Assembly (NCBI GenBank): GCA_019873655.1
Contig: JAIOAU010000016.1
Coordinates: 1-64,000, forward strand
Direction: 5' to 3'
DNA: 64,000 nucleotides
From: Chloroflexota bacterium
GTDB lineage: Bacteria; Chloroflexota; Anaerolineae; Anaerolineales; Villigracilaceae
Shown piece after piece: positions 14,662 to 55,746 of this stretch. A program made the translations under genes and the position numbers. Below the pieces are notes generated by a model, which was given only the letters and a program-made list of their open reading frames with translations, ran no database searches and was not told the DNA's origin. Every line of letters begins with the position of its first letter. The first letter of the stretch is position 1.

Positions 14662-15615
14662 TCATTCGCCTGCGCCCCAGGTGATGTCGGGGGGAATGCC
14701 AGGCGGCCGCAGCCACTTGAGCCAGCCGCTCTTCTGGCGTTGTTGCGGGGGAATCTTCTCCCAGCCGATGAGGATGATGCTGAGGGTAAGGAAAGCGGCG
14801 CCGGCCCATTGCAAGGGGAGAAGGCTTTCGTGTAGCCACAAATGGCTGGCGAGGATCGTAATCAGCAGTTCGCTGAGGCCAAGCAGGGCGGTTTGCATGC
14901 CGCCCAGATGTTTGACGCCCAGGAAGAGGGTCAGGCGGGAGAAAAAGGTCACCATCGTCAGCCCCAGGACGGGGTTCCAGGAGACGCTGGCGGCCGGAAG
15001 GCTGCGGTCAAAGACGAGATAGGCAGGCACGACCACCATGCTCATGGCCAGAAGGGTGTAGAGGGTCACCGTCGGGGCGGGGATGTCGTAGAGCACGCGC
15101 TGATTGATGGGGAGGTGGAAAGCGTACATCGCCGACGCCCCCAGCATGAGGGCGACGCCGATCCAGTCGATTTCTGCGGTTTTCGTGTAGGTAAGAAGGA
15201 GGACGCCCAGCGTGGCAACGGCCATGCGCAGACGCGTGATTCGACCGGGGGGTTGGAAGTCGAGCGCCAGCCAGAGGGCGAGAAAGATGGGGTAGAGCGA
15301 GTAGAGCAGTTGGCCGATGCTGGCCGTCAGACGTTGGAGCGCCAGGTAGTACAGGATGGAGCCGAGGCCGTTGATGACGCCTGCCAGTCCGCAGCCCAAC
15401 AGGCCGGCCGGATAGATATATAGAAACGGACGCTTGAACAGCGCCACGAGGACGAGTAGCAACAAGGCGGCCAGGGCGGTGCGCACGGCCACGACCAGCA
15501 GAGGGGAGAATCCGACCCCAAAGGCTTGTTTGCCAAAGATGGGCGCCAGGCCAAGGAAAACGGCCGCGCTCAGGGCGGCTCCGATTCCCTTAGCGCGGCC
15601 CAGGATTCTTTTCAT
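14662..15615 (-). CDS. EamA/DMT-superfamily permease
   Basis: A 317-residue integral membrane protein with about ten hydrophobic helices in two EamA repeats. Small-residue-rich helices begin the first half (AAVFLGLAPIFGKQAF) and the second (ALMLGASAMYAFHLPINQRVL). Family members export amino acids or other small metabolites. The gene lies 25 bases downstream of the threonine synthase-REC gene on the same strand and is probably the last gene of the sensor operon. Threonine or a related amino acid is a tempting substrate, but that is inference from position only. It converges on the regulator at 14650 with an 11-base gap. Confidence 0.82.
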   Translation of the reverse strand: MKRILGRAKGIGAALSAAVFLGLAPIFGKQAFGVGFSPLLVVAVRTALAALLLLVLVALFKRPFLYIYPAGLLGCGLAGVINGLGSILYYLALQRLTASIGQLLYSLYPIFLALWLALDFQPPGRITRLRMAVATLGVLLLTYTKTAEIDWIGVALMLGASAMYAFHLPINQRVLYDIPAPTVTLYTLLAMSMVVVPAYLVFDRSLPAASVSWNPVLGLTMVTFFSRLTLFLGVKHLGGMQTALLGLSELLITILASHLWLHESLLPLQWAGAAFLTLSIILIGWEKIPPQQRQKSGWLKWLRPPGIPPDITWGAGE

Positions 15616-15640
15616 ATTTTCCTGCCTCGTCGCCGGCGGC

Positions 15641-17317
15641 TCATTTGATCAGGGAGCGAACCTCTTCCAGGAACTCGTCGCTCAGGAAATCGCCTTTTTG
15701 CATCAGCGCCTGAATCTGTCCTTTGAGGCGGTTCTTCTCTTCGGCGGTCAATTCTTTGGCAGTGGCGACAATGACCGGGATGTTGGCGGTTTCCGGTTTG
15801 GCCCGTAGGGCGTCCAGGACGGCAAAGCCGTCCATTTCTGGCATCATCAGGTCGAGGACGATGAGATCGGGCAGTTCGCGCTCGATGAGTTTGAGGGCTT
15901 CCTGACCGCTTTCGGCTTCGAAGATTTTGAAGTCGCCTTGCGATTGCAGGATGCGGCGGATTAAGATGCGCGCCTCGCGGCTGTCGTCTACGATGGCGAT
16001 GTTGGGGAAGCGATCGGGGGCGACGCGGTTGAGGGCGGCCAACAGCCCCTCTTGCGGCGTCTCTTCCATGACGCGGGAGGGCAACACCACGTTGCGTGCC
16101 CAGTTGTCGCCCAGGACGAACGGCTCGGCCGGCATGGTGTGACCGGTGCAGTTGACCACCACCACGTCGGTGGGTTTGATGACGCCGGCGCGCACCAGTT
16201 TGAACAGCCCGGCAAACGCCACCGCTGCGGCAGGTTCGGCGGAAATGCCCTCCATCTTTGCCAGGACGTGCATGGCCCGGAAGGCCTCCTCGTCGCTGAC
16301 GCTTTCGAACGCGCCATGCGTTTCGTTGACCCATTTACGCAGTAAGGTGTAGGTCCGACCGGGATCGCCGGTTGCCAGGGTCTCGATGTGGGTGCGCGGC
16401 GAGGTGACCGGCGTGGCGACTTCCTTTCCGTCTTTCCAGGCCTGAACCATCGGGGCGCAACCCTCGGCCTGAATCGCAGCAATGGCTGGGATGCGGTCGA
16501 TGAGGTTCATGCGCTGGAGTTCGGCAAAGCCCTTGGCCAGGCCGAGCGGCCCCATCCCGCCGCTGATGGATTGGATGTACCAGTCGGGGGTGCGCCAGAT
16601 GGGGTAGGGCTTGCCGTTGTTTCCGGAGACGGGTCCCAGGGCGGCGGTTACCTGCTCGGCGATTTCGAAGGCGATGGTTTTCATGGCCTCGATGGAGGTG
16701 ATGGTGCGGGCGCCCATATCGAGGTACAGGCCGCGCTGACGGGCGAATTCGGCGGCGACCTGTTTGGCCTGGTCGTAGGAGCCGGTCACTTTGATGACCT
16801 GGCTGCCGTAGAGGGCGATTTCACGCATTTTCACCGCCGGCACCAGGCTGGTGACGAACGCCCACAGTTTGATGCCGGCGCGGGCGGCGTAGGCCGAGTA
16901 GGAGATGGCGACGTTGCCGGTCGAGGCGACGACCATTTCGGTGATGCCGGCTTCTTTCAGGGCGGCGATGGTCACTGCCGCCTGGCGGTCTTTGAAGGAG
17001 GCGGTCGGGCCCTGGCGTTCGTCTTTGATGAAGAGGTTGGGGCAGCCAAGCATCATGCCCAGGTTGATCGCCTGGATGAGCGGCGTGCCGCCTTCGCCGA
17101 GGCGGATGGCCGGGTTGGGACTGCGGACGGGCAGCAATTCGCGGTAGCGCCACAGGTCGAACGGACGGCTGGGCAATTGGAGCACCAGGCTCTTTGCCAC
17201 CGTGTCGTAGTCATATTCCGCCTGACGCCATTGACTGCTGCAACGGGGGCAGTTGACGGAGGTGGGAAAGTACGGCGCGGCATGTCCGCAGTCGAGGCAT
17301 TTGATGATGAAGGACAT
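15641..17317 (-). CDS. Threonine synthase-like PLP enzyme fused to a response-regulator receiver domain
   Basis: A 558-residue protein. Residues 1-430 match the fold-type II threonine synthase family. A Cys4 zinc-ribbon (Cys7/10 and Cys23/26) precedes GEGGTPL, the PLP-lysine motif TASFKD (Lys109), the STGNVA phosphate/substrate loop and a glycine-rich SGGMGPLGLAKGF. Residues 437-558 are a complete CheY-like receiver: VDDS, acceptor Asp489 in IVLDLMMPEMDG, VATAK and Lys541. The ATG start, continuous frame and absence of an internal start at the junction argue against two genes. Six bases separate it from the hybrid kinase, so that kinase is the obvious phosphodonor. Phosphorylation may switch threonine synthesis, or the PLP domain may be a sensor; neither is shown. 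Confidence 0.88.
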   Translation of the reverse strand: MSFIIKCLDCGHAAPYFPTSVNCPRCSSQWRQAEYDYDTVAKSLVLQLPSRPFDLWRYRELLPVRSPNPAIRLGEGGTPLIQAINLGMMLGCPNLFIKDERQGPTASFKDRQAAVTIAALKEAGITEMVVASTGNVAISYSAYAARAGIKLWAFVTSLVPAVKMREIALYGSQVIKVTGSYDQAKQVAAEFARQRGLYLDMGARTITSIEAMKTIAFEIAEQVTAALGPVSGNNGKPYPIWRTPDWYIQSISGGMGPLGLAKGFAELQRMNLIDRIPAIAAIQAEGCAPMVQAWKDGKEVATPVTSPRTHIETLATGDPGRTYTLLRKWVNETHGAFESVSDEEAFRAMHVLAKMEGISAEPAAAVAFAGLFKLVRAGVIKPTDVVVVNCTGHTMPAEPFVLGDNWARNVVLPSRVMEETPQEGLLAALNRVAPDRFPNIAIVDDSREARILIRRILQSQGDFKIFEAESGQEALKLIERELPDLIVLDLMMPEMDGFAVLDALRAKPETANIPVIVATAKELTAEEKNRLKGQIQALMQKGDFLSDEFLEEVRSLIK

Positions 17318-17323
17318 AGGATT

Positions 17324-20300
17324 TCAGCCTTTCTGTCCTGGCTCGAGGCGTTTGAGGGCGCGGTCGAGCAGGGTCAGGAGTTCCTGTTCGTTGAGTGTGC
17401 CTTTGCGGAGTAATTTTTGTCCGAAATCGGCCAATTGTTTTTGCTGGATATTGGTCAGATCGCCGCCGCTGACGACGACGACCGGGATGTCGGTCAGCCG
17501 CGGGGTGGTGCGCATCTTTTCGAGGATGGCGAAGCCGTCCATTTCGGGCATAAACAGGTCGAGGATGACGGCGTGGGGCAGCGGCTCGCTGGAGAGTCGC
17601 TGCCAGCCCTGGGTTCCGCCTTGCGCCAGGATGGGGCGATAGCGGCTGCGTTCTTCGAGGATTTTGGCAATCAGGCGCAGGTCTTTGGGATCGTCGTCGA
17701 TGATGAGGACTTCTTTGATGCTGCCGTCGCCGTTCAAGCGGTTGAGGGCGTTGAGCAAATCGTCTTCCAGGATGGGCTTGACGAGGTAATCGGCTGCGCC
17801 GAGGCTGAAGCCTTTTTCTTCTTCCTCGAGGATGCTGCAGATGATGACCGGCACATCGCGCGTTTCGGGGTCGGTTTTGAGTTCGTTGAGGAGCGTCCAG
17901 CCGTCTTTGCCGGGCATCATGATGTCGAGGGTGACGGCGAAGGGTCTGAGTTGGCGGATGCGTTCTTTGGCCTGCAGGGGGTCGGTGAGCGGGATGACCT
18001 GGAATCCCTGAGGCTGCAAATAGCGCTCGTAGAGGGAGATGACCTGGGCGTCGTCGTCGATGGCCAGGATGATTCGATCGCCGCGGCGGCCTTCCTCTTG
18101 CCCTTTGCCGGTTTCTTTGACGCGCGGCAGAGGCAGGGTGAAGTAGAAAGTGCTGCCTTTGCCAACTTCGCTGTGGACGCCGATGCGCCCGCCGTGGAGT
18201 TCGATCAGACGGCGCGAGATGGACAGGCCGAGGCCCGTTCCGCCCGTCTTGCGGGTCGGCGAAGCGTCCACCTGGGAGAAGGGCTGGAAGAGTTTGTTCT
18301 GGTCTTCGGGCGAGATGCCGGGGCCGGTGTCGATGACCTTGACCATGATTTCGGGCTGGCCCATCTCGTTGGTCTCGACCTGGGCCGAGACAGTGATCGA
18401 GCCTCGTTCGGTGAACTTGGCGGCGTTGGACAGCAAATTGATAAGCACCTGGCGGATGCGGACGGCGTCGGCGCGCACAGCGGGCAGGTTTTCGGCAATC
18501 TCTTTCTGGAGGACGACGGGCTTGTCTTTGATGAGGCCTGAGACGGTGGGCAGCACGCTGTTGATGGTGTCGGCGATGTTGACGTCGTCGAAGGCAAGTT
18601 CCATCTTGCCGGCTTCGATCTTGGACAGGTCGAGGATGTCATTGATGAGGCGCAACAGGTGCTGGCCGGAGTTGTAGATGGCGTTGAGGTCCTGCTCTTG
18701 CAATTCGGTGACCGGGCCGTCGATGCCTTTGAGGATGACGCGCGAGAAACCGATGATCGAGTTGAGCGGGGTGCGCAATTCGTGGCTCATGTTGGCCAGG
18801 AATTGGGTCTTGAGGCGGTCGAGTTCGCGCATTTCGCGGATGGCTTGCTGGGCCAGTTCGTAGGAGCGGGCGTTGTCGATGGCCACAGCGACCTGGTCGG
18901 CCAGGGTTTGCAGGACGGCGACGTCGCCGCTGGTGAAGGCGTTGGGGACGGTGGATTGGATGTCGATGGCGCCGATGATGCGGTCGCCGATGCGCAGGGG
19001 GATGGCGGCTTCGGCGCGGGTGTCGGGCAGGAGCGGGTTGGGACGGTGGGTGGGATCAGTGGCGGTGTCGTTGACGATCAGGGGTTGCCCGGAAGAGGTC
19101 ACTGCGCCGACGATGGACTTGGAGCCGACCGGCAGGGAATGGCCGCGGCGCAGCATCTCCTCGCCGGCTTTGCCGGTGGCGGCCGCCAGGACAGCGTTGA
19201 AGCCGGTCTCTTCGATGATGAAGATGGCGGCGTGATAGAAGTCGAAGCGCTCGAGAATCAGGTTGACGGTGCGGTTCAGGAGCGTCTCCATGTCGAGGGT
19301 GGAGGTGACCAGGCGGCCGATTTCGGCCGAGGTGGCCAGGTATTCGTTCTGGCGCTGGATGGCGCTGGCGGCCTCCTGACGACCCAGGGCGGTGACGATG
19401 GTTTCGGCCGCCAGCCGCAGGAGGTTGATCTCTTCTTTGTTCCAGCGGCGCTCTTTCTTGATGGCGTCGAGGCCGAGGAGGCCGATCAACTCTCCGCGGC
19501 TGATGAGCGGGGCGCAGATGATGGACTGAATGCCCTCGCTTTCGAATTGCTTGCGTTCGATCTCCGCTTCGGGCGGCAGAGCGTCAAGACTCGGGGCATA
19601 AAAGATTTCGGCGCGGCTGAGGACTTTCAGCAGATAGGGGAAGGCCTCCCTCGGGACGTTTTGCATGGTTTTGATGAGCGGCGGGATGCCTTCGGCGCAC
19701 CATTCGTTGGTGTTGCTGACGGTGACGCCATCGGGGTTGAGCAGGAAGACGTAGGCGCGGTCCACGCCGGCAAAGACGCCCAATTTTTCGAGGGCTTCGT
19801 CAATGCCGCGCGGAGTTTCGAGGGGGTCGATGCTGACGAAGATGGAGGAGATTTCGCTCGTGACGCGTTCGATTTCGGCCCGGCGGCGGGTTTCTTCGAA
19901 CAGGCGGGCGTTTTGGACGGCGATGGCTGCCTGGTTGGCGATGGCGGCCAGCAGACCCTGGTCATGCTGGTTGAAGGCTTGCGGGTCGGTATAACTCTGG
20001 AGGGCCAGGACGCCCAGGGTTTGTTCGCCCAGCAACATGGGCACGCCTAGCCAGCAGGCGGCCGGTTCGCCGACCGATTCGATGTTATGCTCTTGCAGCC
20101 ATTCGTCTACATTACCCTGAATCAGGAGGCCCTGACGGGTGCGGGCGACGTAGGCGGTCAGGCCCTGGTCGGCGGGCAGGCGCAGGATTTCGCGGTCCAC
20201 GACCGACTCGGAGACGTTGAGGGGGAAGATCAATTCGTTGTTCTCGCGGTCGTAGAGGGCGATGTAGAAATTGGTCGCATCGAGCAGGCGGCTGACGCCG

Positions 20301-22828
20301 CGATAGACTTCTTCCAGGACCTGGTCTAGGTTGAGTTGGGAGGCCAGGCCGCGAGCGAGGTCGTTCAACGCGGCCATTTCCTCGGCGCGCAACTGAGTGT
20401 TGCGGAACAGGCGGGCGTTTTCGAAGGCGATGGCGGCCTGGCTGGCGATGGCGGTCAACAGTTCCAGGTCGTGGAGCGTGTAGACGCGCGGCCGCTCTTC
20501 GCTCTGGGCGGCGATGACGCCGATGACGCGCTCGCCAATCATCATGGGGACGCCCATCCAGCATTGGGCGGCGACGTTTTCGCCGACAATAACTTTTTGG
20601 ATGCCGAGGTCTTTCATCGCGCCTTCGACATCTTCAGGTACGAAAACCGGCTGACGGGTCTTGATAATGTAGTCGGTGAATCCGCCGGCGAGCGGCCGGG
20701 GGGCTGTATCGAAGCGCTTGTTGGCGTCAATGGTCAGCGGGAAGGAAAGCATGCCCGTTTCTTCGTCGTAGAGGGCGATGAAGAACGTCGAGGTGTCCAT
20801 CAGGCGCGAGGTCTGGCGGTAGAGGGTCTCGGCAATGGCGGCGGGCTCGAGGGTGGCGGTCAGTTCGCGGCCCATCTCGTTCAGGATGGCCAGTTCTTCG
20901 GCTTGCCGCTGGGATTGTTGGAAGAGGCGGGCGTTATCGATGGCGGCGCCAGCCTGGCTGGCGATGGCCTGCAGGATGGACAGGCTTTCCTCGTCGTAGG
21001 CGTTCAAGCGGTCGCTTTGGACGTCCAGCACGCCGATGACGCGGCCTTTCACCGTAATCGGGACGGCGATTTCGGCGCGCGTATCGGGCAGTTCGGGCGT
21101 GGCCATGTAGCGCGGGTCTTGGGAGACGTCGTTGACCATGACGGGCTGGTTGGTCTTGGCCGCCTCGCTAATCAGGCTGGGGCCTTCGGTCAGGTCCACA
21201 TTGGTGCGCTCGAAACGGGCGCGGGTGTCCCCGATCGTGCTGCCGACCTTGAAGAGCAAGCGGTCATTTTCATAGAGGGAGATGCCGACGAAATAGTGGC
21301 CGAAACGGGCCTTGATCAGGTCCACCAGGATGGTCAGCACTTCTTCCAGGTCGAGCAGGGAGGTGACGGCGCGGCCGACTTCGTTCAGGGCTTCGAGGGC
21401 GGCGGCGCGCTTGCGGGTCTCCTCGAACAGGCGGGCGTTTTCGAGAATGATCGCCGCCTGACCGGCGATGGACATCAACAGGTTCAGCGAAGTGACGTTG
21501 AAGGCGCGCGGCTTGGTGTAACTCTGGATGCCGATCACGCCGATGACTTTCGAGCCGATCATCATCGGCACGCCCAGCCAGGAGAGCGCCTCCTCGCCGA
21601 TCATGTCGATGCCGAGTTCGCGCACCTTCGCGCCGACGTTTTCCTCGATGAGCAGCGGCTGGCCGGTGCGGATGATGTATTCGGTCAGGCCGCGTCCCTG
21701 GCGGCGTTTGCGCCAGGGACGGCGCTCGCCTTTTTCGAACGAGATCCGGAATTCGACTTCGTCTGCCTGTTCGTCGTAGAGGGCGATGTAGAAGTTGGTC
21801 GTATCGAGCAGGCGCGAGGTGAACTGGTAGAGGGTTTCGGTAATTTGCTGGACGTCGGTCAGGGCCGTCAGGGCGCGGCTCATCTCGTTGAGGATGGTCA
21901 ACTCTTCGGCGCGCGATTGAGCCTCCCGGAACAGTTTCGTGTTCTGAATGCTGATGGCGGTCTGGCGGGCGATCGAGGTGAGCAGTTCCAGGTGATGGGG
22001 GGTATAGAGGTTGGCGGTTGTGGTGCTTTGCAGGCCGAGCGCGCCCAACACTTCGTCGCCGACCATCAGCGGCACGCCCATCCAGCATTGGGGCATCAGG
22101 CCTTGGCCGATGATGATTTTTTCGATGCCCAGGGCGGTCATGTGTTCTTCGACGTTGTTGGGCATGAAGATGGGCTTGCGGTTGATGAGCATGTAATCGG
22201 TCAGCCCCTGACGCAGCGGGCGGGTCATGCCGGAGGTGTCGGCCTGCCTCTGGCCGTCCTGGTAGTAGAAGGGGTAGGTGATGAGTTCGGCCTGGGGGTC
22301 GTACAGCGCCACGAAGAAACTATGAATGGGCATCAGGCGAGCGGTGTATTTGTGGACGGTGGTGACGATGCCTTCGATGTCCAACTGGGCAGAGAGTTCC
22401 TGGCCCATTTCGTTCAGGATGGCCAGTTCCTGCGCCTGGCGCTGAGTCTGCTGGAAGAGGCGGGCGTTTTCCAGGGCCAGCGAGAGTTGGTCGGTGACCT
22501 GCCTGACCAGGGCTTGTTCGTCCGGCGTCCAGACGCGCTCGTGCGGGCTGACGATTTCGATGACGCTCCATTGGTCAGCATCCAGGCGGACAGGCAGGGC
22601 GAGGCTGGTCGGCGTGGTGACGACGGCGGTTTCGATGGGCGATTTGCTTACCGGCGAGGTCTGCGAGGGCAGACGCGCGGCCGGACGGGACGCCGCCGTC
22701 TCTTGTGCAGCAGGCTGGGGCCGGGGCCGAACGGGGCGCGTTTTCTCGACCGGAGGCGGCGCGCCCTCGGCTTGCTTGATGTCGCTAAAGAGTTGGTCAA
22801 GCCGTTTCTGAAGGCGTTTGTTCGACAT
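17324..22828 (-). CDS. Giant soluble hybrid histidine kinase: half-GAF, seven GAFs, HK, two REC
   Basis: An 1834-residue protein without membrane helices. Residues 1-67 are Pro/Ala-rich and probably disordered. Residues 68-124 are the C-terminal half of a GAF only. Full GAF domains follow at about 137-298, 305-465, 475-633, 645-805, 812-974, 985-1148 and 1160-1320, joined by similar coiled linkers (AEELAILNEMGRELTA-type). The H-box NMSHELRTPLNS has His1349; HATPase at about 1450-1567 (LLSNAAKFTE, TGPGIS, GGTGLGLSIS). REC1 has acceptor Asp1635 and YLVKP; REC2 has Asp1757 and a Lys-Gly instead of Lys-Pro. I chose ATG 22828; a TTG at 22834 has closer spacing to GAGGAG. It overlaps parA by 32 bases. 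It is the only kinase of the operon and so the likely convergence point of the ten sensors. Confidence 0.92.
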   Translation of the reverse strand: MSNKRLQKRLDQLFSDIKQAEGAPPPVEKTRPVRPRPQPAAQETAASRPAARLPSQTSPVSKSPIETAVVTTPTSLALPVRLDADQWSVIEIVSPHERVWTPDEQALVRQVTDQLSLALENARLFQQTQRQAQELAILNEMGQELSAQLDIEGIVTTVHKYTARLMPIHSFFVALYDPQAELITYPFYYQDGQRQADTSGMTRPLRQGLTDYMLINRKPIFMPNNVEEHMTALGIEKIIIGQGLMPQCWMGVPLMVGDEVLGALGLQSTTTANLYTPHHLELLTSIARQTAISIQNTKLFREAQSRAEELTILNEMSRALTALTDVQQITETLYQFTSRLLDTTNFYIALYDEQADEVEFRISFEKGERRPWRKRRQGRGLTEYIIRTGQPLLIEENVGAKVRELGIDMIGEEALSWLGVPMMIGSKVIGVIGIQSYTKPRAFNVTSLNLLMSIAGQAAIILENARLFEETRKRAAALEALNEVGRAVTSLLDLEEVLTILVDLIKARFGHYFVGISLYENDRLLFKVGSTIGDTRARFERTNVDLTEGPSLISEAAKTNQPVMVNDVSQDPRYMATPELPDTRAEIAVPITVKGRVIGVLDVQSDRLNAYDEESLSILQAIASQAGAAIDNARLFQQSQRQAEELAILNEMGRELTATLEPAAIAETLYRQTSRLMDTSTFFIALYDEETGMLSFPLTIDANKRFDTAPRPLAGGFTDYIIKTRQPVFVPEDVEGAMKDLGIQKVIVGENVAAQCWMGVPMMIGERVIGVIAAQSEERPRVYTLHDLELLTAIASQAAIAFENARLFRNTQLRAEEMAALNDLARGLASQLNLDQVLEEVYRGVSRLLDATNFYIALYDRENNELIFPLNVSESVVDREILRLPADQGLTAYVARTRQGLLIQGNVDEWLQEHNIESVGEPAACWLGVPMLLGEQTLGVLALQSYTDPQAFNQHDQGLLAAIANQAAIAVQNARLFEETRRRAEIERVTSEISSIFVSIDPLETPRGIDEALEKLGVFAGVDRAYVFLLNPDGVTVSNTNEWCAEGIPPLIKTMQNVPREAFPYLLKVLSRAEIFYAPSLDALPPEAEIERKQFESEGIQSIICAPLISRGELIGLLGLDAIKKERRWNKEEINLLRLAAETIVTALGRQEAASAIQRQNEYLATSAEIGRLVTSTLDMETLLNRTVNLILERFDFYHAAIFIIEETGFNAVLAAATGKAGEEMLRRGHSLPVGSKSIVGAVTSSGQPLIVNDTATDPTHRPNPLLPDTRAEAAIPLRIGDRIIGAIDIQSTVPNAFTSGDVAVLQTLADQVAVAIDNARSYELAQQAIREMRELDRLKTQFLANMSHELRTPLNSIIGFSRVILKGIDGPVTELQEQDLNAIYNSGQHLLRLINDILDLSKIEAGKMELAFDDVNIADTINSVLPTVSGLIKDKPVVLQKEIAENLPAVRADAVRIRQVLINLLSNAAKFTERGSITVSAQVETNEMGQPEIMVKVIDTGPGISPEDQNKLFQPFSQVDASPTRKTGGTGLGLSISRRLIELHGGRIGVHSEVGKGSTFYFTLPLPRVKETGKGQEEGRRGDRIILAIDDDAQVISLYERYLQPQGFQVIPLTDPLQAKERIRQLRPFAVTLDIMMPGKDGWTLLNELKTDPETRDVPVIICSILEEEEKGFSLGAADYLVKPILEDDLLNALNRLNGDGSIKEVLIIDDDPKDLRLIAKILEERSRYRPILAQGGTQGWQRLSSEPLPHAVILDLFMPEMDGFAILEKMRTTPRLTDIPVVVVSGGDLTNIQQKQLADFGQKLLRKGTLNEQELLTLLDRALKRLEPGQKG

Positions 22829-23582
22829 AAGCAATCAACTCCTCAGCCAGGCTGCGGTACTGCGTCGCGCCTCGGCTGGTAGGTCTGTACTGGGTGATGG
22901 GCAGGCCCAGGATGGGGCTTTCGCGCAATTTGGTATCCACTTCGATGATGGTTTTGAACAGCCCTTCTCCAAAGGTGCGCTCCAGTTGTTCGAGGATGTT
23001 GCGGTGGGTGCGGTTGCGCTGGTCGAGCAGGGTGACCAGGATGCGATAGGCCAGGTTGGGGTTGTCATCGGCGCGCACCTGGCGGACGATGGTCATCATG
23101 TCGCGCAGGGCGTAGGCGGAGAAGTATTCGGCCTGCGTGGGGATGATGAGCAGGTTCGCGGCGCTCAGGGCGTTGACGGTGATGGCCCCAAGAGACGGCG
23201 GGCAATCCATGATGATGAAATCGTAAGGGAGAGGAGAGGCTTTTTCGATGGCGCTGCGCAGGCGGGAGGTGTAATCAAGGTAAACGGGCAGCACTTGCTC
23301 GGCATGTTCGAGGCTCAAATTGGCCGGAATCAGTTCCAGGCCAACGAAGTTGGTCTGCAGGCGGGCTTCGAGCAGGGGGGCGGCGTCGAGCAGGATTTCG
23401 CCGCTGGTGTGTTCCACTTTCGCGGGTTCGAATCCGAGGGCGAGGGTCAGGTTGGCCTGCGGATCGAGATCGATCAGCAAGACGCGGCGTCCGAGTTCGC
23501 CGAGGGCCGCGCCCAGCGACAGGGTGGTGGTCGTCTTGGCCACCCCGCCTTTTTCGTTGCTAATTGCAATCACATGAGTCAT
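22797..23582 (-). CDS. ParA/Soj-family ATPase
   Basis: A 261-residue P-loop ATPase with the deviant Walker A EKGGVAKTTTT (signature Lys11 and Lys16), the A' motif LLIDLDPQANLT and Walker B FIIMDCPPS. These are the hallmarks of dimerising ParA ATPases that move plasmids, chromosomes or protein clusters over the nucleoid. There is no parB and no parS-like repeat nearby, so this is not a standard par locus. Its place between the last membrane sensor and the hybrid kinase, overlapping the latter by 32 bases, suggests it positions the signalling complex, as PpfA and ParC do for chemoreceptor clusters. The analogy is an inference. Confidence 0.92.
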   Translation of the reverse strand: MTHVIAISNEKGGVAKTTTTLSLGAALGELGRRVLLIDLDPQANLTLALGFEPAKVEHTSGEILLDAAPLLEARLQTNFVGLELIPANLSLEHAEQVLPVYLDYTSRLRSAIEKASPLPYDFIIMDCPPSLGAITVNALSAANLLIIPTQAEYFSAYALRDMMTIVRQVRADDNPNLAYRILVTLLDQRNRTHRNILEQLERTFGEGLFKTIIEVDTKLRESPILGLPITQYRPTSRGATQYRSLAEELIAYVEQTPSETA

Positions 23583-23612
23583 GACGTCCTCTCCATCCTG
23601 TATGAGCAGACG

Positions 23613-25373: not shown

Positions 25374-25385
25374 AGGCAGCCTCTC

Positions 25386-27323: not shown

Positions 27324-27334
27324 CCGGTCTCTCC

Positions 27335-29251: not shown

Positions 29252-29303
29252 CGTTCACTCCCAGGCGCGAACCGCAACAGGAAATTCGTCAGGGGACGGG
29301 CGC

Positions 29304-33904: not shown

Positions 33905-33914
33905 CGGATGACCT

Positions 33915-35618: not shown

Positions 35619-35632
35619 GGCGATCCTCTCGG

Positions 35633-38359: not shown

Positions 38360-38382
38360 GTCACAGTCCTTTGCGCTGGAGA

Positions 38383-40377
38383 TTAGTTGGACGGCGTTTC
38401 GGGCGCTTTGGCCTCGGGCGGGTTGAGGTACACCGATACCTCGGTCACGCTCGGGAGTTGACGCAATTCACGCACGGCAATTTGCATGATGGTGTCAGGG
38501 TCGAGCGACTGGCCCAGGTGGGCCGTCAGTTCGCTCAGCGCCTGTTCCTGGGCTGCTCGGTACTGAGCCATTTCGAGCAGACGCACGTTTTCGATTGCCA
38601 GGGCGACCTGGTTGGCGACTTCAACGGCCAGCAGCCGCTCGGCTTCCGGCCAGGAGGCGTTGTCGCGGCGCCGGAAGACCAGGGACCCGATTTTCTGATT
38701 GCGGAGCGTGATGGGAACTTCCAGGCGGTTGGGGGCGTTCTCGTCCTCTTGCCCTTCTGCCTCGGCAGGCGTGTAAGGGGCGGTGCCAAGCGGCGTGTAG
38801 CGATAGGCGCGTTTCTGCTGGCTGATTCGTTCTCTCCAGGCTTTGCGCACGCCTTCGCTCGTCAGCGCCTGGAGGCGTTGGACGGCTTCCTGGCTTTCGG
38901 CCAGCAGACGGGCGTTTTGGATGGCCAGCGCGATTTGGTCAGCCATGGCCTGGAGAAGTTCGATGGTTTCGGGAGGAAAAGCGTTGAGTTCGATGGATTG
39001 AATATCCAGGACGCCGATGACCCGTCCGCGCACGCTGAGGGGCAGGGCGGCTTCGGAGCGCGTGGCTGGCAAGTCTGGATTGTCGAAGAAGACCGCGTCT
39101 TCGCCCACATTGGTGGCGATTCGGGCGCGGTTGAAATAGGCGGCGTTGCCGACGATGCCCTGCCGTCCAACGGCCAGGCGGTGACCGCGCTCGAGCATCC
39201 GTTTGCCGCCCTCCGACGAGGCGGCATGCAAGACGGCATACTCGCCACGTTCATCGAGCAGGAAGATGGCGGCGTGGTAGTAATTGAACCGCTCGCTGAT
39301 CAGGTGGACGGTCTCGTTGAGCAGCATGTTCAGGTCTTGCGAAGCGACCGCCTGACGGGCGACGCTGGTGGCGGCCTGCAGCATGATGGCCCGGCGGGTG
39401 AGTTCCTCGGTGCGCTCGGCGACCCGTTTTTCCAGGTCGGTTTGGGCAATCTGCAGTTGATCGAGCATGTGATTCAGCCGCAGGGTGAGTTCGGCGGTTT
39501 CGTCCGAAGTGGTCAGAACGGCGCGCCGGCCGAGATGTCCCTGTTCGATGTCTTTCATGGCCTCGATGATGTTTTTGATGGGCGTGGAGATGATGACAGC
39601 CTGGAGCGTCGCAATTCCCAGCGTGATGATGATTCCCACCAGGCTGACGATGCTCACCTGGAGGACGAAATCGCTCAACGCGCTGGCTTGCACCTCTGCC
39701 GCCTGCCTCAGTTTTTCGTAGCCAAGCGGCGCGATCATCAGCGTGTTGATGAGCAAAATCATGACCACGGTGATTTGGAGGCGGGTCTGGAGTCTGATTC
39801 CGCCGCTGACGATTTGTTTTTCGCGATCGGCAGGGAGCAGGGCGTTGCGCACGGGCGCCATGACGCGGTCGAGGAACATCGTATTTTGCATGGCAAAGCC
39901 CATGGCAAAAATCAGCCCGGCGAGGACGATATGGGTGGTCTGAACCGGCGTGACATTTGCCAGGTTGTTCATGTAGACTGCCACGCTTAAGATGACCGGC
40001 GAACAGATGGTCAGGAAAGCAGCGGGCGCGACGCGCCAGGGCAGGCGGATGGCGTCTTCCCAGGCTGCTTCTTCGTCGGTCGGCTGCGGAGGGACGCTGA
40101 TACCTCGCGCCTGTTCGTACAGACGCCTGCGGGCCCGGCTGCTGGCGGAGGCGGCGTAGAGCGGCAGGAGTAGATTGGCGATCAACATCGAGAAGAGCAC
40201 GCTGAAGACCAGGTGCGTTGCTTGCAGGCGGGATAAATGGGCGTTGAGCCAGAGATAGAGGATGCTGGGCAGCGCCGATATCAACGCGATTTGTTGCGCC
40301 AAAACCTGGACGCGCAGAATGTATTTATCTTGCCAGCGATCGAACAGGCGGTCGAAGGGCGAGGCTTTTGGAATCAT
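38383..40377 (-). CDS. Membrane sensor: six helices, HAMP, GAF (sensor 3)
   Basis: A 664-residue protein. About six membrane helices are spread over residues 25-262, with a sizeable polar stretch after the second (75-118). HAMP (263-318, STPIKNIIEAMKDIEQGHLG) follows directly, as in the six-helix-HAMP arrangement of some adenylate cyclases, then a coiled coil, GAF (345-505), half-GAF (570-625) and the common tail (625-664). No cyclase or kinase is attached. The tail here ends in a short acidic/Pro stretch. Confidence 0.85.
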   Translation of the reverse strand: MIPKASPFDRLFDRWQDKYILRVQVLAQQIALISALPSILYLWLNAHLSRLQATHLVFSVLFSMLIANLLLPLYAASASSRARRRLYEQARGISVPPQPTDEEAAWEDAIRLPWRVAPAAFLTICSPVILSVAVYMNNLANVTPVQTTHIVLAGLIFAMGFAMQNTMFLDRVMAPVRNALLPADREKQIVSGGIRLQTRLQITVVMILLINTLMIAPLGYEKLRQAAEVQASALSDFVLQVSIVSLVGIIITLGIATLQAVIISTPIKNIIEAMKDIEQGHLGRRAVLTTSDETAELTLRLNHMLDQLQIAQTDLEKRVAERTEELTRRAIMLQAATSVARQAVASQDLNMLLNETVHLISERFNYYHAAIFLLDERGEYAVLHAASSEGGKRMLERGHRLAVGRQGIVGNAAYFNRARIATNVGEDAVFFDNPDLPATRSEAALPLSVRGRVIGVLDIQSIELNAFPPETIELLQAMADQIALAIQNARLLAESQEAVQRLQALTSEGVRKAWRERISQQKRAYRYTPLGTAPYTPAEAEGQEDENAPNRLEVPITLRNQKIGSLVFRRRDNASWPEAERLLAVEVANQVALAIENVRLLEMAQYRAAQEQALSELTAHLGQSLDPDTIMQIAVRELRQLPSVTEVSVYLNPPEAKAPETPSN

Positions 40378-40396
40378 GCGGTACGCTCCTGAAGGT

Positions 40397-42007
40397 TCAA
40401 TCCAGTTTCAGTTCGATCGTGGCTTCGTCGGCGCGCAGGGCGCGGCCAAGTTCTTTGACCGCCGTCTGCAGGATGAGGTCTGTGTTCGGCGAGGACCAGA
40501 TTTTGCTGGTGATCTCGGCAATCAAGCGTTCTTGCAGAGCCATTTGCTGGCTCTCCTCAAGCAGGCGGGCGTTTTCGAGGGCCAGCGCCGCCTGGGTGGC
40601 AATCGACTCGATCAAGGCGCGTTCCTCGGGGGTCCACTCGGTTGAGCCTTCGAGGGTGAGTTGACCGATGATTTGTTCGCGCAAAGTGAGGGGGATTTCC
40701 AGAGCGGTCAACTCTTCGGCCTCCTCAGCGCCAGGGCCAAGACGGAATTCGGCCTCTTGCGGCCCGCCGGGTCGCTGCGACCAGACGCCTTGCAGATACT
40801 GTCCGTGCAGGCGGCGGATTTCATCCAGGTTGCTCTCCAGTTCGGTGAACAGACGAGCGTTCTCGAGGGCGATGGCGAGCGTGTCGCTGATGTTTTGCAG
40901 GATGATGATGTCGTCCTCATCGAAAGCGCTGGGGAGTTCCGATTGGATGGTCAGGGCTCCCAGCACTCGTTCTCCCGAGATGAGCGGCAGGGCCAATTCC
41001 GAGCGGGTGTTGGGCAGATAGGGATTGGCAAACCGGACGGCGTCTTTTCCGACGTCGAGAGCGATGCGCGCCTGACGGTTGAGGATCGTCCAGCCGACCA
41101 TGGAGGATTCGCCGATGGGAAGTTTGTGGCCGGCCTGAATCATCGCCCGGCCTTCTTCGCCCGTCCCGGCGTGGAGGACGGCGAAGCGCCTTTGTTCGTC
41201 CACCAGGAAGACGCCGGCGTAGTACAGCCCAAAACGTTCTTTGATGAGGTCTACCACTTCTTGCAGCAGCGCCTGCGGATTGAGCACGCCCGTAATGGCG
41301 CGCGAAATTTCTGCCGCGGTGCGGATTTGCCGCGACCGCCGCTCCAGGTTGGTCGAATGCTCGTGCAGTCTCTGCCGGTCGTGTTCGATTTGAGCGGCAA
41401 ACTGGAGCGTCTTTTGCAGGTTGCTTTGCATCCCGCGCAGCATGGTCGCCAGCGAGGCGGAGATCACCGTTCCCAGCAGCAAGATGACCACAATCCGGTT
41501 AATCCATGCCGAGAGGTAGTCGTAAGCAAATATCTGAGAGGGTGTGATGAGATGCTGGCTCATGGCGACGGCCAGGCTGGCGACGGTGACGATGCCAACC
41601 CCCAGCGCGTAAATCGAACCGCGCTCGCCGAGCAGAAGCGTTGCCATGAAAATGAACCCGACCATGAAGACGGCGCCGTCGGCGGTCACGCCCGATTGCA
41701 GGAAACTGGTGACGCTCAACAGGTAGACCATGACGGTCAGGCTGACGGCCCGGACCTCGAACTTGATCCGCCGCACGACGGCGACGACGATCATCCAGAC
41801 GATGACGGCGGTGTAGACGATGAGCGCGGCGAGCGGCGTTTCCTGGATCGAGCGAATCACGATCAGGAAGTAGGACAGCACACCGACGATGGCCGCCACC
41901 ACGCTCACGTTATTGAGAATCCGCAGCCGGATCGTCTGGAGCGTATCGGTCGTGGGGAGAGGAGGAGTCTCCTGAAGGTCGAGTTTCTTGTCGTAGGATG
42001 GAATCAT
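40397..42007 (-). CDS. Six-helix membrane GAF sensor without output domain (sensor 2)
   Basis: A 536-residue protein: about six membrane helices (33-190), coiled coil, GAF (230-385) with LYYAGVFLVDE and LPNTRSELALPLISGERVLG, half-GAF (430-482, LEIPLTLREQIIGQLTLEG) and the shared tail (485-536, ending in LKLD). I chose the ATG at 42007, with GGAG eight bases upstream; a TTG at 42025 would add six residues. It lies 27 bases downstream of sensor 1. The membrane block resembles that of sensor 10 around the LLGERGSIYALG loop. Confidence 0.84.
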   Translation of the reverse strand: MIPSYDKKLDLQETPPLPTTDTLQTIRLRILNNVSVVAAIVGVLSYFLIVIRSIQETPLAALIVYTAVIVWMIVVAVVRRIKFEVRAVSLTVMVYLLSVTSFLQSGVTADGAVFMVGFIFMATLLLGERGSIYALGVGIVTVASLAVAMSQHLITPSQIFAYDYLSAWINRIVVILLLGTVISASLATMLRGMQSNLQKTLQFAAQIEHDRQRLHEHSTNLERRSRQIRTAAEISRAITGVLNPQALLQEVVDLIKERFGLYYAGVFLVDEQRRFAVLHAGTGEEGRAMIQAGHKLPIGESSMVGWTILNRQARIALDVGKDAVRFANPYLPNTRSELALPLISGERVLGALTIQSELPSAFDEDDIIILQNISDTLAIALENARLFTELESNLDEIRRLHGQYLQGVWSQRPGGPQEAEFRLGPGAEEAEELTALEIPLTLREQIIGQLTLEGSTEWTPEERALIESIATQAALALENARLLEESQQMALQERLIAEITSKIWSSPNTDLILQTAVKELGRALRADEATIELKLD

Positions 42008-42034
42008 GCGATTATCTCCACGCAACGGTCTGAA

Positions 42035-45000
42035 TCACCGAGAGGATTTGGGGCCGGCGTCGTTTGGATTCAGACCGACTCGGATGCGCGTCCGCCGCGC
42101 CCCGAGCGCTTTGCTCAGTTCGCTGGCGGTGGTCTCCATAATGGTGCGCGTATCGGTCGAGCGGCGGATACGGCTGGTGACTTCGTAGAGCAGGCGTTCG
42201 CGGTCTACCTGGCGCCGAATCTGTTCGAGCAGGCGGGCGTTGGCGATGATCGCCGCCAGGCTGCCGCCCAGCGTGCCGAGCATTTCCTCGTCGTTCTCGC
42301 TGTAAGCGGCGATCCGGTCGCTTTCGACGTTCAACACGCCCAGCAGTTCGCCGCGATAGACCAGCGGGATGGCCAGTTCGGAGCGGGTGTCGCCGCTGAC
42401 CTGGATGTAGCGCGAGTCTTTGGTGACGTCGTCGATCCGCAAGGGCTGCAGATGAGCGGCCACCCAGCCGGTGATCCCCGAACCGATGGGGATGGAGAGA
42501 TTCTTGACCTCTTCGGAATAGCCGGTGGAGGCTTTGATTTCCAGCGAGCGGGTCTCTTTGTTGAGCAGCAGGATGGCTACCCGGTCTCCGCCCAGCGTCA
42601 CCTGCAGGCCCTGGGCGGCGCTGTTGAGGGCCTCTTCCAGGGTCGTGCCGGAGGCGGCCGCGGTGGTCACATGGTGCAATAGACGGTGCTGGGAGAGGTG
42701 TTCCTGCGTTTCGGAGAACAGTTCTGAGTTCAGGACGGCTACCGCCAGTTGGTCGGCCAGGATGCGCAGGACGTTGACGTCTTCCTCGCCGAAGGCATAC
42801 GGCTCGGTGCTTTGAACGTCCAGCACGCCCAGGATGCGCGGCCCGACGCGCAGGGGCAGCGCGACCTCCGAGCGGGTTTCGGGGAGCAGGGGGTTGGCGT
42901 AGTAGGTGGCGTCTTTGCTGGTGTCGGCCACGACCAGCGGCTCGCCGCTGCCGCTGACATACCCGACAATTGATTTCGATCCCACCGCCAGTTTGTGACC
43001 GGCGCGCTTCATCTGTAGGCCGGCCTCGCCAGTTGCCTCACGGATGACGGCGTATTCGCCGCTGGGGTCGATCAGGAAAACGGCGGCGTGGTAGAAGTTG
43101 AAGCGCTCGCGGATGAGCGAAACAGCGCGCACGAGCAATTCATTGACATCCAGCGAACCAGAAATGTCGCGCGCAATCTCGGCGGCGGTCTGCAGTTGCA
43201 GGGCGCGCCGGCGGGTCTCTTCCAGCAGACGGATGTTGTAGATCGCGCCCGCCACTTGCGAAGCCAGGGTGGAGACGAAGCGCAGATCGCCCTCGTCGAA
43301 GGCCCGTTCGCGTTCGGTATCCTGGACGACGATCGCGCCGATGGCCTCGCCGGCTACCAGCAGGGGAACGCCCAGCCAGGATTTGGCCGGTTTGCCGGTT
43401 ACTTTCGCGCCCAAGGCGGCCAGTCTTCGTTCGGTGTCTTCCACCACCATCAACGGCTGGCGGGTGCGAATCAGGATCGAGGTCAGACCCTCGCCCAGGG
43501 GGAAAGGTTCGTAAGAGACGATTTCCCCGCCGTTGGGCGAGGCCTCGTACATGTAAGGGATGCGAATCGAGTCGGTGGAAGAATCGTACAAGGCCAGCGT
43601 GAAAGAGACCTCGCCCATTGCCAGACGAATCTGCTCGTGCAGCGCCTCATACAACGCCTGCAGGTTGGGGGCCGAGGCGATGGCCCGGCTGGCAACCGTG
43701 ATCGCCTCCAGTTCGCTGAGGCGATGTTCGACGGTCTTTTGCTCCCGGATTCTTTCGATGGAGGCGGTCACCAATTCGGCCAGGCTGATGTACGGTTCGA
43801 CCGCCGCCGGCAGGATGGGGGTCGGCTCCCGGTTGCCGAGAATCAGCAGGGTTTCCAACCTTTCGTTGCGAAAGACCGGCACGAAGGCCAGGTTGCGCAA
43901 TTCTATCTGATGGAGCATTTTCCACAGGGCGGCCGGCAGCGTGGTGGTCAGTTCGTCCAGCGCGCCGATCAGGATGCCGGCGCGCAGCCGTTCGGCCAGG
44001 GGAGCGGTCGGGACGGCAAGCAATTCGGGGAGCGGCAGGCTGCGCAGCGGATCGTTGACGGCGACGATTTTCAGGCCGTCCTCGCTTGCTTGAAGCAGGA
44101 TGGAAATGAAGGGGGTTTGGCGCAGGGTGAGCGCCGCTGCCTCGATGACTCCCGCCTCTGTTTGGGCTTGGGCGATTTGATAACTGAAATGCAGAATTTC
44201 CATCATGCCTTGCACGTTGGCGCGGCCGGCTTCCATCAGGCGGATGTTTTCGAGGTTGGCGGCAATTTGACCGGCGATAGTCCGCAGGGTGACCAGTGCG
44301 TCCTCGTTCAACTCGCCTTCGACCTTGCTGTGAATATCGAGGGCGCCAAGCACCCGGTTGCCGGTCATGATGGGAATGCCGGCCTCGGCCACCGCCTCGG
44401 GGAGCAATTCGTTGTGAACGTAGAGCGGATTCTCGGTCAGACGGGTGATGACCTCGGCCTGCCTGGCAAGGATGACATGGCTGATGAGAGTACTGCCGTC
44501 GAGGGGAAGACGATAGGACTGAGCCAGCAGGGTTTCGGCGGCCGGTCCGCGGGCGGCGCGCAGGACGGCGAACCGCTCGGTTTCGTCGAGCAAGTAGATG
44601 GCCGTTTGATAGAAATCGAAGCGCTCCGATAGCAGAGCGAGGGCCTGCTCGATCAAGTCCTCGCGCGTCAGGACCGAGGCGATGCTCTGGGTCATTTCGG
44701 CCGCCGTGCGCACCTGGCGGGTTCGTTCTTCTACCTGCTGCTCGAGGTTTTGCCGCAAGGCCAGCAGATTTTCGTTGGCCTCTCTGATTTCTCTGATGCG
44801 CCGCCGCTCAAGGACGTTGCGGGCGACGGTCACGATCATGATGGCGCTGCCCAGGGCGACGAATTGAACCGCCAGCAGGTAGGCGCTTAAGCGCGGGAAA
44901 TTGGGGATGAAGAGGTTTCCCAGAGCAGTGGCAATGATGACGACGGCCATGATGCCAGCGGAGGCGTAGATAGGCAAGATGATGGCCGCCAGCAGCATGG

Positions 45001-45373
45001 TTAGCGGAACCGTAAAGAACAGCGCCGTGAAGATGGATTGGGGATAATTGATGGCCAGGTAAAACCCGATCAGGCTAGGACTAATTGTCAGCAAAATAGC
45101 GCCCAGCATGGGAATGCGGCTGCGACTGAGCAGGAGGGAAACGAACGCCACTCCGGCCATGAGCAGGAAGCCATAGATCAACGGCAGGACGTAGCGGCGG
45201 TCGTAATACAACAGCGCGGCAATGTACAGGCTCAAGATGACCATGGCAATCGCCAGCGAGGCAGACAATTCTGCTCGCTGGCGGGCAGCGCTTTCTTGGA
45301 TGGCAGGATGCGCAGTGATGAATTTTTGCAGAAACCGAACGATTTTCGACGGGCGCTTGTTCTCAGATGTCAT
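42035..45373 (-). CDS. Large membrane sensor with five GAF domains (sensor 1)
   Basis: An 1112-residue protein. About six membrane helices (38-185) lead into a coiled coil (185-225) and GAF domains at about 225-378, 390-545 (degenerate), 555-715, 725-885 and 895-1055, then the common tail (1060-1112). GAF4 has the family form seen in the other sensors (FYHAAVFLIDPSGEYAVI, KLAVGSKSIVGYV, LPETRSEVALPLRVG). GAF3 is close to those in the hybrid kinase (SWLGVPLLVAGEAIGAIVVQD). It shares traits with both the sensors and the kinase and may represent the ancestral form. No output domain. It lies 58 bases downstream of the second response regulator. Confidence 0.86.
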   Translation of the reverse strand: MTSENKRPSKIVRFLQKFITAHPAIQESAARQRAELSASLAIAMVILSLYIAALLYYDRRYVLPLIYGFLLMAGVAFVSLLLSRSRIPMLGAILLTISPSLIGFYLAINYPQSIFTALFFTVPLTMLLAAIILPIYASAGIMAVVIIATALGNLFIPNFPRLSAYLLAVQFVALGSAIMIVTVARNVLERRRIREIREANENLLALRQNLEQQVEERTRQVRTAAEMTQSIASVLTREDLIEQALALLSERFDFYQTAIYLLDETERFAVLRAARGPAAETLLAQSYRLPLDGSTLISHVILARQAEVITRLTENPLYVHNELLPEAVAEAGIPIMTGNRVLGALDIHSKVEGELNEDALVTLRTIAGQIAANLENIRLMEAGRANVQGMMEILHFSYQIAQAQTEAGVIEAAALTLRQTPFISILLQASEDGLKIVAVNDPLRSLPLPELLAVPTAPLAERLRAGILIGALDELTTTLPAALWKMLHQIELRNLAFVPVFRNERLETLLILGNREPTPILPAAVEPYISLAELVTASIERIREQKTVEHRLSELEAITVASRAIASAPNLQALYEALHEQIRLAMGEVSFTLALYDSSTDSIRIPYMYEASPNGGEIVSYEPFPLGEGLTSILIRTRQPLMVVEDTERRLAALGAKVTGKPAKSWLGVPLLVAGEAIGAIVVQDTERERAFDEGDLRFVSTLASQVAGAIYNIRLLEETRRRALQLQTAAEIARDISGSLDVNELLVRAVSLIRERFNFYHAAVFLIDPSGEYAVIREATGEAGLQMKRAGHKLAVGSKSIVGYVSGSGEPLVVADTSKDATYYANPLLPETRSEVALPLRVGPRILGVLDVQSTEPYAFGEEDVNVLRILADQLAVAVLNSELFSETQEHLSQHRLLHHVTTAAASGTTLEEALNSAAQGLQVTLGGDRVAILLLNKETRSLEIKASTGYSEEVKNLSIPIGSGITGWVAAHLQPLRIDDVTKDSRYIQVSGDTRSELAIPLVYRGELLGVLNVESDRIAAYSENDEEMLGTLGGSLAAIIANARLLEQIRRQVDRERLLYEVTSRIRRSTDTRTIMETTASELSKALGARRTRIRVGLNPNDAGPKSSR

Positions 45374-45431
45374 GCCGGTCTCCTCGGATGGAGGACGAGC
45401 AAGGATAACTCGGTACAGGCTTGGAACAGAC

Positions 45432-45902
45432 TCAACTCATCTCCCACACCGGTTCACCTGCCAGGATGCGGCGAATCTGGTCCGGGAAACGATCGGGATC
45501 GAGCGGCTTTCCCAAGAATCCGTCAAAGCCGGCCTCGCGGGCCTTGTTCATCTGCTCCAAACTGGCCTCGGCGGTCACGGCGACGATCGGGATGCTCTTG
45601 AGCCGCTCGGAGGAGCGGATTTTTCGCAGCGCGCCGTAACCGTCTTCGTAGGGCAGGCGGATGTCCATCAGAATCAGGTCCAGGCGCGGCAGGGTGTCGG
45701 CGTATTCGACCACTTCGTAGCCGGACGTCTTCCACTCGCAGTGGATTCCCAGAAAGCCCAGCATGCGGGCAATCAGGACAAAGTTGGCCACGTTGTCTTC
45801 CACGACCAGCACGGTGGCGTCTTTGGGGATGGCGGTTTTGCGGCCGGTCTGGGTTTCGGCGTTGGGGTTTCGGGCGGTATCTTGAGGGTCGTTGGCGCTC
45901 AT
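45432..45902 (-). CDS. Single-domain response regulator (DivK/CheY-like), second of pair
   Basis: A 156-residue protein: a 28-residue polar extension and then a receiver with VLVVEDN, acceptor Asp80 in LILMDIRLPYEDGYG, VAVTAEA and the conserved Lys in GFLGKPL. There is no output domain. It probably receives phosphate from the operon's hybrid kinase or acts as a diffusible messenger or phosphate sink. Its start overlaps the first regulator's stop (ATGA). Confidence 0.9.
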   Translation of the reverse strand: MSANDPQDTARNPNAETQTGRKTAIPKDATVLVVEDNVANFVLIARMLGFLGIHCEWKTSGYEVVEYADTLPRLDLILMDIRLPYEDGYGALRKIRSSERLKSIPIVAVTAEASLEQMNKAREAGFDGFLGKPLDPDRFPDQIRRILAGEPVWEMS

Positions 45903-46273
45903 CTTTTCCTCATGTATCGTTCGATTTGCTGCGGCAGCAGGTCGATATCCACGGGCTTTTGGATATAGCCGTCACAGCCTGCCTCGAGAGATTTTTCGCG
46001 ATCGCCGCGCATCACATTGGCGGTCAGGGCCACGATGGGGGTGTTCTCGAAACCCGGCATGCCGCGTATGCGGGCGGTCAGCGTGTAACCGTCTATATCC
46101 GGCATATTGATGTCCATGAGAATCAAATCGGGCTTGAGTTCTTTGAGCCTTTCCAGGGCCTGGGTGGCGTTCTCGGCTTCCATGACCTCGTAGCCCTCGG
46201 CCATCAAGATGCGGCGGATGAGAGTCCGGTTGTCCAGATTGTCCTCGACGTAAAGAATAGTTCCGTTGCTCAT
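45899..46273 (-). CDS. Single-domain response regulator (DivK-like), first gene of the sensor operon
   Basis: A 124-residue receiver, the DivK length: ILYVEDN, acceptor Asp54 in LILMDINMPDIDGY, VALTANVM and the conserved Lys in GYIQKPVD. There is no effector domain. Two starts are possible: ATG 46273, which fits homology, or TTG 46285, which lies at better distance from GGAGG and would add four residues. It opens the operon behind a TATAAT box. Confidence 0.9.
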   Translation of the reverse strand: MSNGTILYVEDNLDNRTLIRRILMAEGYEVMEAENATQALERLKELKPDLILMDINMPDIDGYTLTARIRGMPGFENTPIVALTANVMRGDREKSLEAGCDGYIQKPVDIDLLPQQIERYMRKR

Positions 46274-46299
46274 GGTCGCAATCAATCCTCCGATATCTC

Positions 46300-54856: not shown

Positions 54857-54870
54857 GGAAAGGTTCTCTT

Positions 54871-55719: not shown

Positions 55720-55746
55720 GAGGTTCCTCCCTGATTGAGTGTCCAT

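Follow-up and report, generated by a model that had tools for sequence, protein, structure and literature searches.

We describe here a sensory operon in a 64,000-nucleotide stretch of DNA (the window, positions 1 to 64,000 of contig JAIOAU010000016.1, assembly GCA_019873655.1) from a bacterium of the Chloroflexota, family Villigracilaceae. From 46285 down to 14662, on the minus strand, lie 16 co-directional genes with gaps of -38 to +58 bases. By Pfam they encode two stand-alone receivers, ten membrane GAF proteins, a ParA, a hybrid histidine kinase, a fusion of a pyridoxal phosphate (PLP) enzyme to a receiver, and an EamA transporter. An original prediction, made from the sequence alone, had put all genes on the minus strand with gaps of at most 58 bases, which the coordinates confirm, and had listed ten output-less membrane GAF sensors, two receivers, ParA, one hybrid kinase and an enzyme fused to a receiver (REC), which Pfam bears out. 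The operon itself stands, but the count of 15 genes does not, as the EamA gene was left out though it lies inside the region described. Internal promoters or terminators, which were said to count against a single unit, were sought by simple scans that gave 0 and 4 promoter-like matches (shuffle means 1.8 and 3.0) and 18 and 22 terminator-like matches (shuffle means 16.0, and 16.0 with a standard deviation of 4.2). Both patterns are near the shuffled level, so that internal breaks were rejected as far as scans of this kind can show a division of the region.

The operon opens with the stand-alone receivers REC1 (45899..46285, Pfam Response_reg 9.4e-31) and REC2 (45432..45902, Response_reg 2.3e-20), all coordinates being for the minus strand unless given otherwise. 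The ten sensors follow, each with the C-terminal tail described below. S1 (42035..45373) is a membrane protein with four GAF domains and S2 (40397..42025) has MASE11 and two GAF domains. S3 (38383..40377) and S9 (25386..27323) have transmembrane segments, HAMP and two GAF domains, and S5 (33915..35618), S6 (32126..33904) and S10 (23613..25373) have transmembrane segments and two GAF domains. S4 (35633..38359) has transmembrane segments, dCache, HAMP and two GAF domains, S7 (29304..32129) the same with one GAF stretch, and S8 (27335..29251) has sCache_2, HAMP and two GAF domains. The GAF, HAMP, MASE11 (S2) and sCache_2 (S8) matches are over the curated Pfam cut-offs, and dCache_1 in S4 and S7 is significant, yet under its cut-off. 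No kinase, GGDEF, helix-turn-helix or methyl-accepting chemotaxis protein (MCP) domain was found by Pfam in any of the ten, the few weak sub-threshold matches not being outputs.

The Soj-like ParA (22797..23582, AAA_31 1.4e-46) is encoded after the sensors, and its gene overlaps that of the kinase (17324..22834, with ATG 22828 as the likely start). K11, K16, D40 and the deviant Walker A motif KGGVAKTT are invariant in 16 of 16 aligned ParA sequences, and the protein is an ATPase with the deviant Walker A that marks ParA positioning systems. The kinase has 1836 residues, with an N-terminal half-GAF, seven GAF_2 stretches, HisKA (2.6e-22), HATPase_c (1.7e-31) and two Response_reg stretches, and is by these domains a hybrid two-component kinase; a hydropathy scan gave no transmembrane segment in it. 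The last two genes are for PALP-REC (15641..17317, PALP 9.6e-66, Response_reg 3.1e-20), a threonine-synthase-like PLP enzyme with a receiver that falls under the curated cut-offs for threonine synthase (PRK08197, 250 bits vs 303; thrC, 154 vs 167.1), and for the EamA transporter (14662..15615, Pfam).

The gene set is kept across the family, a group of anaerobic bacteria. Of 41 genomes, 28 have a match to S8 at E<=1e-60, its own being one of them, and among the matches listed most genomes have theirs on one contig. We read 19 clusters including that of the window, several of them extended. The order in complete clusters is REC-REC, sensors, ParA, kinase, PALP-REC, EamA: the REC-REC pair opens all 17 clusters (the window's included) whose start is covered, and PALP-REC and EamA follow the kinase in all 18 that are covered there. 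The sensor number ranges from 4 to 13 in the 17 complete clusters while the other genes are fixed; two and three sensors were found in genomes G025 and G012 respectively. Of the 152 genomes of the family, 123 have the ParA gene by a ParA alignment (78 among the 88 of good quality). When 60 regions around this gene were examined, one of them from another family of the order, 58 had tailed sensors upstream of it. The kinase adjoins ParA in 88 of 90 sources. Output-less sensors that share one soluble hybrid kinase, a ParA, two receivers and a receiver-fused enzyme are thus a conserved feature of the family. Conserved synteny had been named as the first check of the original prediction and is strongly positive here, and the depth of this conservation supports its view of a modular multi-sensor system around one kinase.

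The same gene set, with variations, is also found in other families of the class. At class level ParA has matches at E<=1e-75 in 59 of 396 genomes, and of 19 such loci that we read 12 have array genes and 7 do not, so that ParA alone overstates the spread of the array and was rejected as a sure marker for it at this level. Anaerolinea thermolimosa IMO-1 has ParA, kinase, PALP-REC, EamA and at least four sensors, with the cluster start lying outside the piece examined. In the phylum, S8-like proteins at E<=1e-50 were found in 33 of 400 genomes, with three candidates scored per genome, and 31 of the 33 are in the window's class.

With regard to the sensors, all ten in the window end alike, in about 60 residues that comprise a coiled coil, a TAxxEL-like helix and one strand, followed directly by the stop codon (for S8 the last 60 residues, helix and first GAF strand, are encoded at 27338..27517). 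In terms of a GAF domain, this tail is its first helix and strand. The model that we used for it derives from the ten sensors of the window and takes in the last helix of GAF2 as well, and it places the tail within 60 residues of the end in 559 of 562 complete membrane GAF proteins that have no kinase or receiver match. The three tail-less exceptions are all in locus L210 (genome G495), where several sensor reading frames appear broken, perhaps through an assembly error. Of a first set of 269 proteins compared with a 162-position GAF model, 156 have a last match with its end at positions 30-49; in 93 a weak tail was unscored and the last match is the end of the preceding GAF. One glutamate of the tail is conserved at 98% in the 615 tails aligned out of 616. 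There are other near-invariant residues, and the equivalent stretch of complete GAF1 domains has a different pattern, for which reasons the tail seems, as far as sequences can tell, to be conserved for its own sake. In a structure model of GAF1, GAF2 and tail of S8 (mean predicted local distance difference test score, pLDDT, 85) the helix of the tail (residues 331-345) is folded and the last strand comes out as coil.

Sensor clusters of relatives also encode periplasmic binding proteins (NMT1, Peripla_BP_6 and Bmp), which account for six of seven extra proteins scanned (L048:1064-2038, L049:11184-12200, L050:4296-5486, L044:6417-7433, L057:5617-6576 and L045:16909-17886), and their position inside the clusters hints at ligand delivery. 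For a 524-residue membrane protein at L050:428-2002 there was no family match.

The kinases vary in length from 1049 to 2738 residues and their front half is variable, with an N-terminal peptide and the half-GAF as its common pieces. In 87 of 88 kinases the first match to GAF covers a C-terminal piece only, starting at positions 57-136 and ending at position 150 or beyond of 162; the remaining kinase, at L259, has no match. In the window the half-GAF (22448..22624) covers positions 103-161 of the 162, that is the C-terminal third with three strands and the last helix. A structure model of this N-terminus has a helix at residues 3-13 with moderate confidence, then a low-confidence linker, and then the half-GAF as three strands and a long last helix with high confidence (block pLDDT 86-97). 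In a Foldseek search with the half-GAF, GAF domains make up most of the first eleven ranks, aligned over about 50 columns and without significance in any case.

The N-terminal peptide of the window kinase, MSNKRLQKRLDQLFSDIKQA (22769..22828), has a ParB-like motif. The ParA-binding motif of Myxococcus xanthus ParB comprises L11, R13, L15, L18 and I19 (PMC12462528, cited, as are the other papers below, from part of its text). The window kinase, in MSNKRLQKRLDQLF, has the same spacing, and so has the ParB of its own genome, which starts MPQKTGLGRGLSALIP. The exact ParB-type spacing occurs in 44 of 88 kinases, against a mean of 0.37 and a maximum of 3 in shuffled sequences and against 16 of 616 sensor N-termini. 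The core R/K/N/Q-phi-x-x-phi-phi, a looser pattern for which there is no chance control, is present in 85 of the 88 peptides; of the other three, two depart from it at a single residue and the third has a start that is misplaced. Proteins of many kinds are described as activating ParA/MinD proteins through a short basic stretch added at the N-terminus, TlpT and McdB being likely examples (PMC7993993), and McdB has been tested as a partner of this type (PMC12204374). ParA, encoded directly upstream of the kinase, is in our view best explained as the binder of the kinase's N-terminal peptide. The original prediction was correct to list ParA but gave it no role, and the kinase N-terminus provides a plausible one.

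We propose that the operon encodes a conserved multi-input signalling hub, in which the sensors would plug into the one kinase and ParA would position that kinase by way of its N-terminal peptide; we see the case for and against this whole as about evenly balanced. Signalling from sensors to kinase is the simplest inference, because sensors without an output need a partner and the one soluble kinase of the operon has no membrane input, and a physical array through which the sensors act on the kinase, as originally predicted, is likewise something that we infer. Ligands would bind the varied extracellular or membrane domains, some of them by way of periplasmic binding proteins such as those encoded in the clusters of relatives, and GAF1 and GAF2 would relay the change along the coiled coil to the tail at the C-terminus. 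This tail would dock on the soluble kinase, such that any sensor could address the same kinase, and in the window's family the docking site would most likely be the N-terminal half-GAF, a possible mode of docking suggested by tail and half-GAF being complementary truncations. The kinase would pass phosphate via its two receivers to REC1, REC2 and PALP-REC, and possibly also to convergent regulators; output through the receivers and the PALP-REC enzyme is proposed because of their domains. ParA would bind the ParB-like peptide and spread or partition kinase-sensor assemblies over the nucleoid. A more specific form of the proposal, in which the tail, as first helix and strand of a GAF, joins the half-GAF of the kinase in trans as a plug does a socket, with no limit on the number of sensors for the one kinase, and ParA moves or spaces the entire hub on the nucleoid much as a chromosome is partitioned, we hold to be doubtful. 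The null results of the coupling tests, the variant loci and the solitary ParA genes considered below are the reason why we rate neither form more highly.

Several results weigh against the proposal, and they are best discussed together with the explanations that compete with it. In the case of ParA, the exact ParB-type spacing is unmet in the other 44 of the 88 kinases, and the peptide of G286 has no basic residue. Two of the 60 ParA regions (L241 and L243), and the seven class-level loci referred to above, have ParA without array genes nearby. The ParA genes at L241:1178-1972 and L243:1176-1979 are close to array ParA, and neither sensors nor kinases are encoded in the 20 kb examined around them. 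In G422 and G513 there are no array genes in the 20 kb examined around ParA, the other contigs of these genomes not having been searched for sensors, and no new partner with a ParB-like peptide was found in the adjoining stretches examined. It could be that ParA acts alone, for instance in regulation or in some other task of partition, and that the kinase peptide binds something else, for example DNA or membrane. The ParA orthologues of G422 and G513 without array neighbours and the half of the peptides that lack exact spacing speak for this, and a basic amphipathic helix could indeed bind nucleic acid or lipid. However ParA is beside the kinase in the family clusters, the core motif is kept in 85 of 88 peptides and the window kinase shares the spacing of its own genome's ParB, and we regard a ParA acting alone as somewhat unlikely.

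With regard to the coupling of sensors and kinase, tails are no more similar within genomes (0.322) than between them (0.325), and concerted evolution of tails within genomes was rejected on these figures. Mutual information between tail and half-GAF, for 589 pairs from 82 genomes, is 1.49 times that of shuffles, which is not over the control pairs (1.36-1.93; tail/ParA 1.62, GAF1 start/half-GAF 1.42, GAF2 helix/half-GAF 1.62). The peptide and half-GAF (mean identity over 18 kinases 0.44 and 0.51) are less conserved than the kinase core (0.72), though more so than the linker (0.22).

There are also loci at which tails occur without the half-GAF. A variant from another family (f24), found at five loci (L261, L263, L264, L275 and L276), has REC-REC, a membrane HAMP-GAF-type kinase that begins with a conserved RGGLGRT segment, ParA and sensors; three of the five end with a very large multi-GAF kinase and the two others run off the contig. 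The five kinases at the start and the three at the end have no N-terminal half-GAF, and the sensors keep the tail. The window's own genome has, on contig C10 (L301:2943-18226), a second and smaller locus with the same ingredients: a GAF kinase, an OmpR-type regulator, a REC-REC-GAF protein, an ATP-binding cassette (ABC) substrate-binding protein, one tailed dCache-HAMP-GAF sensor, a HAMP-GAF membrane kinase, a PALP-REC that is 51% identical to the window's, a REC and another PALP. The tailed sensor there adjoins a membrane kinase. These kinases without half-GAF, and the membrane kinase next to this sensor, mean that the half-GAF cannot be all that the tail depends on, and the half-GAF as a universal socket is contradicted by both kinds of locus.

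The sensors could be tandem-duplicated receptors with other partners, such as the convergent kinases or each other, the tail being only a coiled-coil or dimerisation cap. Tails where the half-GAF is missing and a coevolution signal not over the controls count in favour of such an explanation. Against it are a kinase that has no membrane part, adjoins ParA in 88 of 90 sources and comes after the sensors in the clusters read, and near-invariant tail residues over 615 of 616 tails, and we think it unlikely. That the operon is an ordinary hybrid two-component system which gene duplication has made larger, and whose sensors are redundant and form no special assembly, agrees with every part being from common families and with the presence of more GAF kinases both in the window and on contig C10, but is the least probable of these explanations, given ten transmitter-less proteins in one operon, a layout that is fixed while sensor number varies across the family, and terminal elements common to the sensors and others common to the kinases.

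Fusions are found in some relatives. In G116, which is from another family of the class, a membrane sensor and a multi-GAF kinase are fused in one protein, which counts in favour of the hub. The kinases of G116 (L264 with L280), G286 (L273) and G027 (L267), of 2679, 1190 and 1225 residues respectively, have transmembrane segments and sensor-type GAF pairs, and by their predicted domains are natural sensor-kinase fusions.

Beyond the EamA gene, and convergent with the operon, lie three plus-strand genes, for an OmpR-type response regulator (13892..14650, Pfam), which is a conserved neighbour, and for a REC-GAF-histidine kinase (12306..13895) and a 3-GAF histidine kinase (9694..12309), which are frequent ones. 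A convergent REC protein of 237-275 residues is found beyond EamA in 15 of the 17 clusters covered there, the window included, and in two of the 15 it sits behind one additional gene; its assignment as OmpR-type is by Pfam in the window. These convergent genes (9694-14650) were not part of the original prediction, nor were the sensor tail and, in the kinase, the half-GAF and the ParB-like peptide. Elsewhere in the window, at 53999-55746 on the minus strand, are two adjoining similar open reading frames (EPGLGAGFR...GPEYWAAVGEAMAARFPGATPQA) that by eye are apparently tandem paralogues.

If our proposal is correct, MCP/CheA arrays would not be the only means by which bacteria bring the input of many receptors together on one kinase; in this second one the sensors could be exchanged, and inheritance or spacing would be based on ParA. 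The tail and the kinase N-terminus are short and defined, and docking and activation of ParA are therefore directly testable with purified fragments; a standard plug would also be useful for synthetic multi-input sensors. We found no description of this gene set or of a split GAF domain in the open-access literature, most subscription papers being outside our scope.

There are nonetheless several known systems with which it can be compared. One is the hybrid histidine kinase phosphorelay, which has in common with the window system HisKA, HATPase_c, two RECs and stand-alone RECs; the window system differs in that its inputs are separate and numerous, and in having ParA and a PLP enzyme with a REC in the set. 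Chemotaxis-type arrays are a different matter, as the genome (99.82% complete) has no match to MCPsignal (PF00015) or to CheW (PF01584, which stands for the coupling protein and for the CheW-like domain of CheA), each of which is found in 7 of 14 control genomes. Membership of that class was rejected for this reason, and the claim that the system is built without MCP or CheW parts holds genome-wide.

With the ParABS, McdAB and PomXZ partition and positioning systems the window system shares a ParA-type ATPase with deviant Walker A and a neighbour-encoded protein with a mostly basic N-terminal helix and, behind it, a linker of low model confidence that is probably disordered; here the presumed partner of ParA is a histidine kinase. 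The cytoplasmic chemosensory cluster of Rhodobacter sphaeroides is one in which several receptors feed one kinase pathway. It is positioned by the ParA homologue PpfA (PMC6829392, PMC7993993), and TlpT, the partner suggested for PpfA, is extended at its N-terminus by a basic stretch (PMC7993993). The likeness to the window system would be in a ParA homologue with a sensory cluster and a presumed partner with a basic N-terminus; the differences are that the window system has no MCP or CheW, that its ParB-like peptide is on the kinase itself and that its sensors are membrane GAF proteins.

The actinobacterial conservons (AGPS) provide a parallel for the sensors. Their accessory proteins accompany kinases that have no extracytoplasmic sensor, and one of them, CvnF8, stimulates a histidine kinase (PMC13343842, which has GAF domain as a keyword). 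The likeness would be in accessory input for a kinase without an extracytoplasmic sensor of its own. A conservon has one accessory protein and the window operon has ten membrane sensors; no Pfam match to an MglB-type roadblock protein or a small GTPase was found among the operon proteins. As far as can be judged, the operon would work like a ParA-positioned sensory cluster of the PpfA/TlpT type combined with an accessory-sensor kinase of the CvnF8 type.

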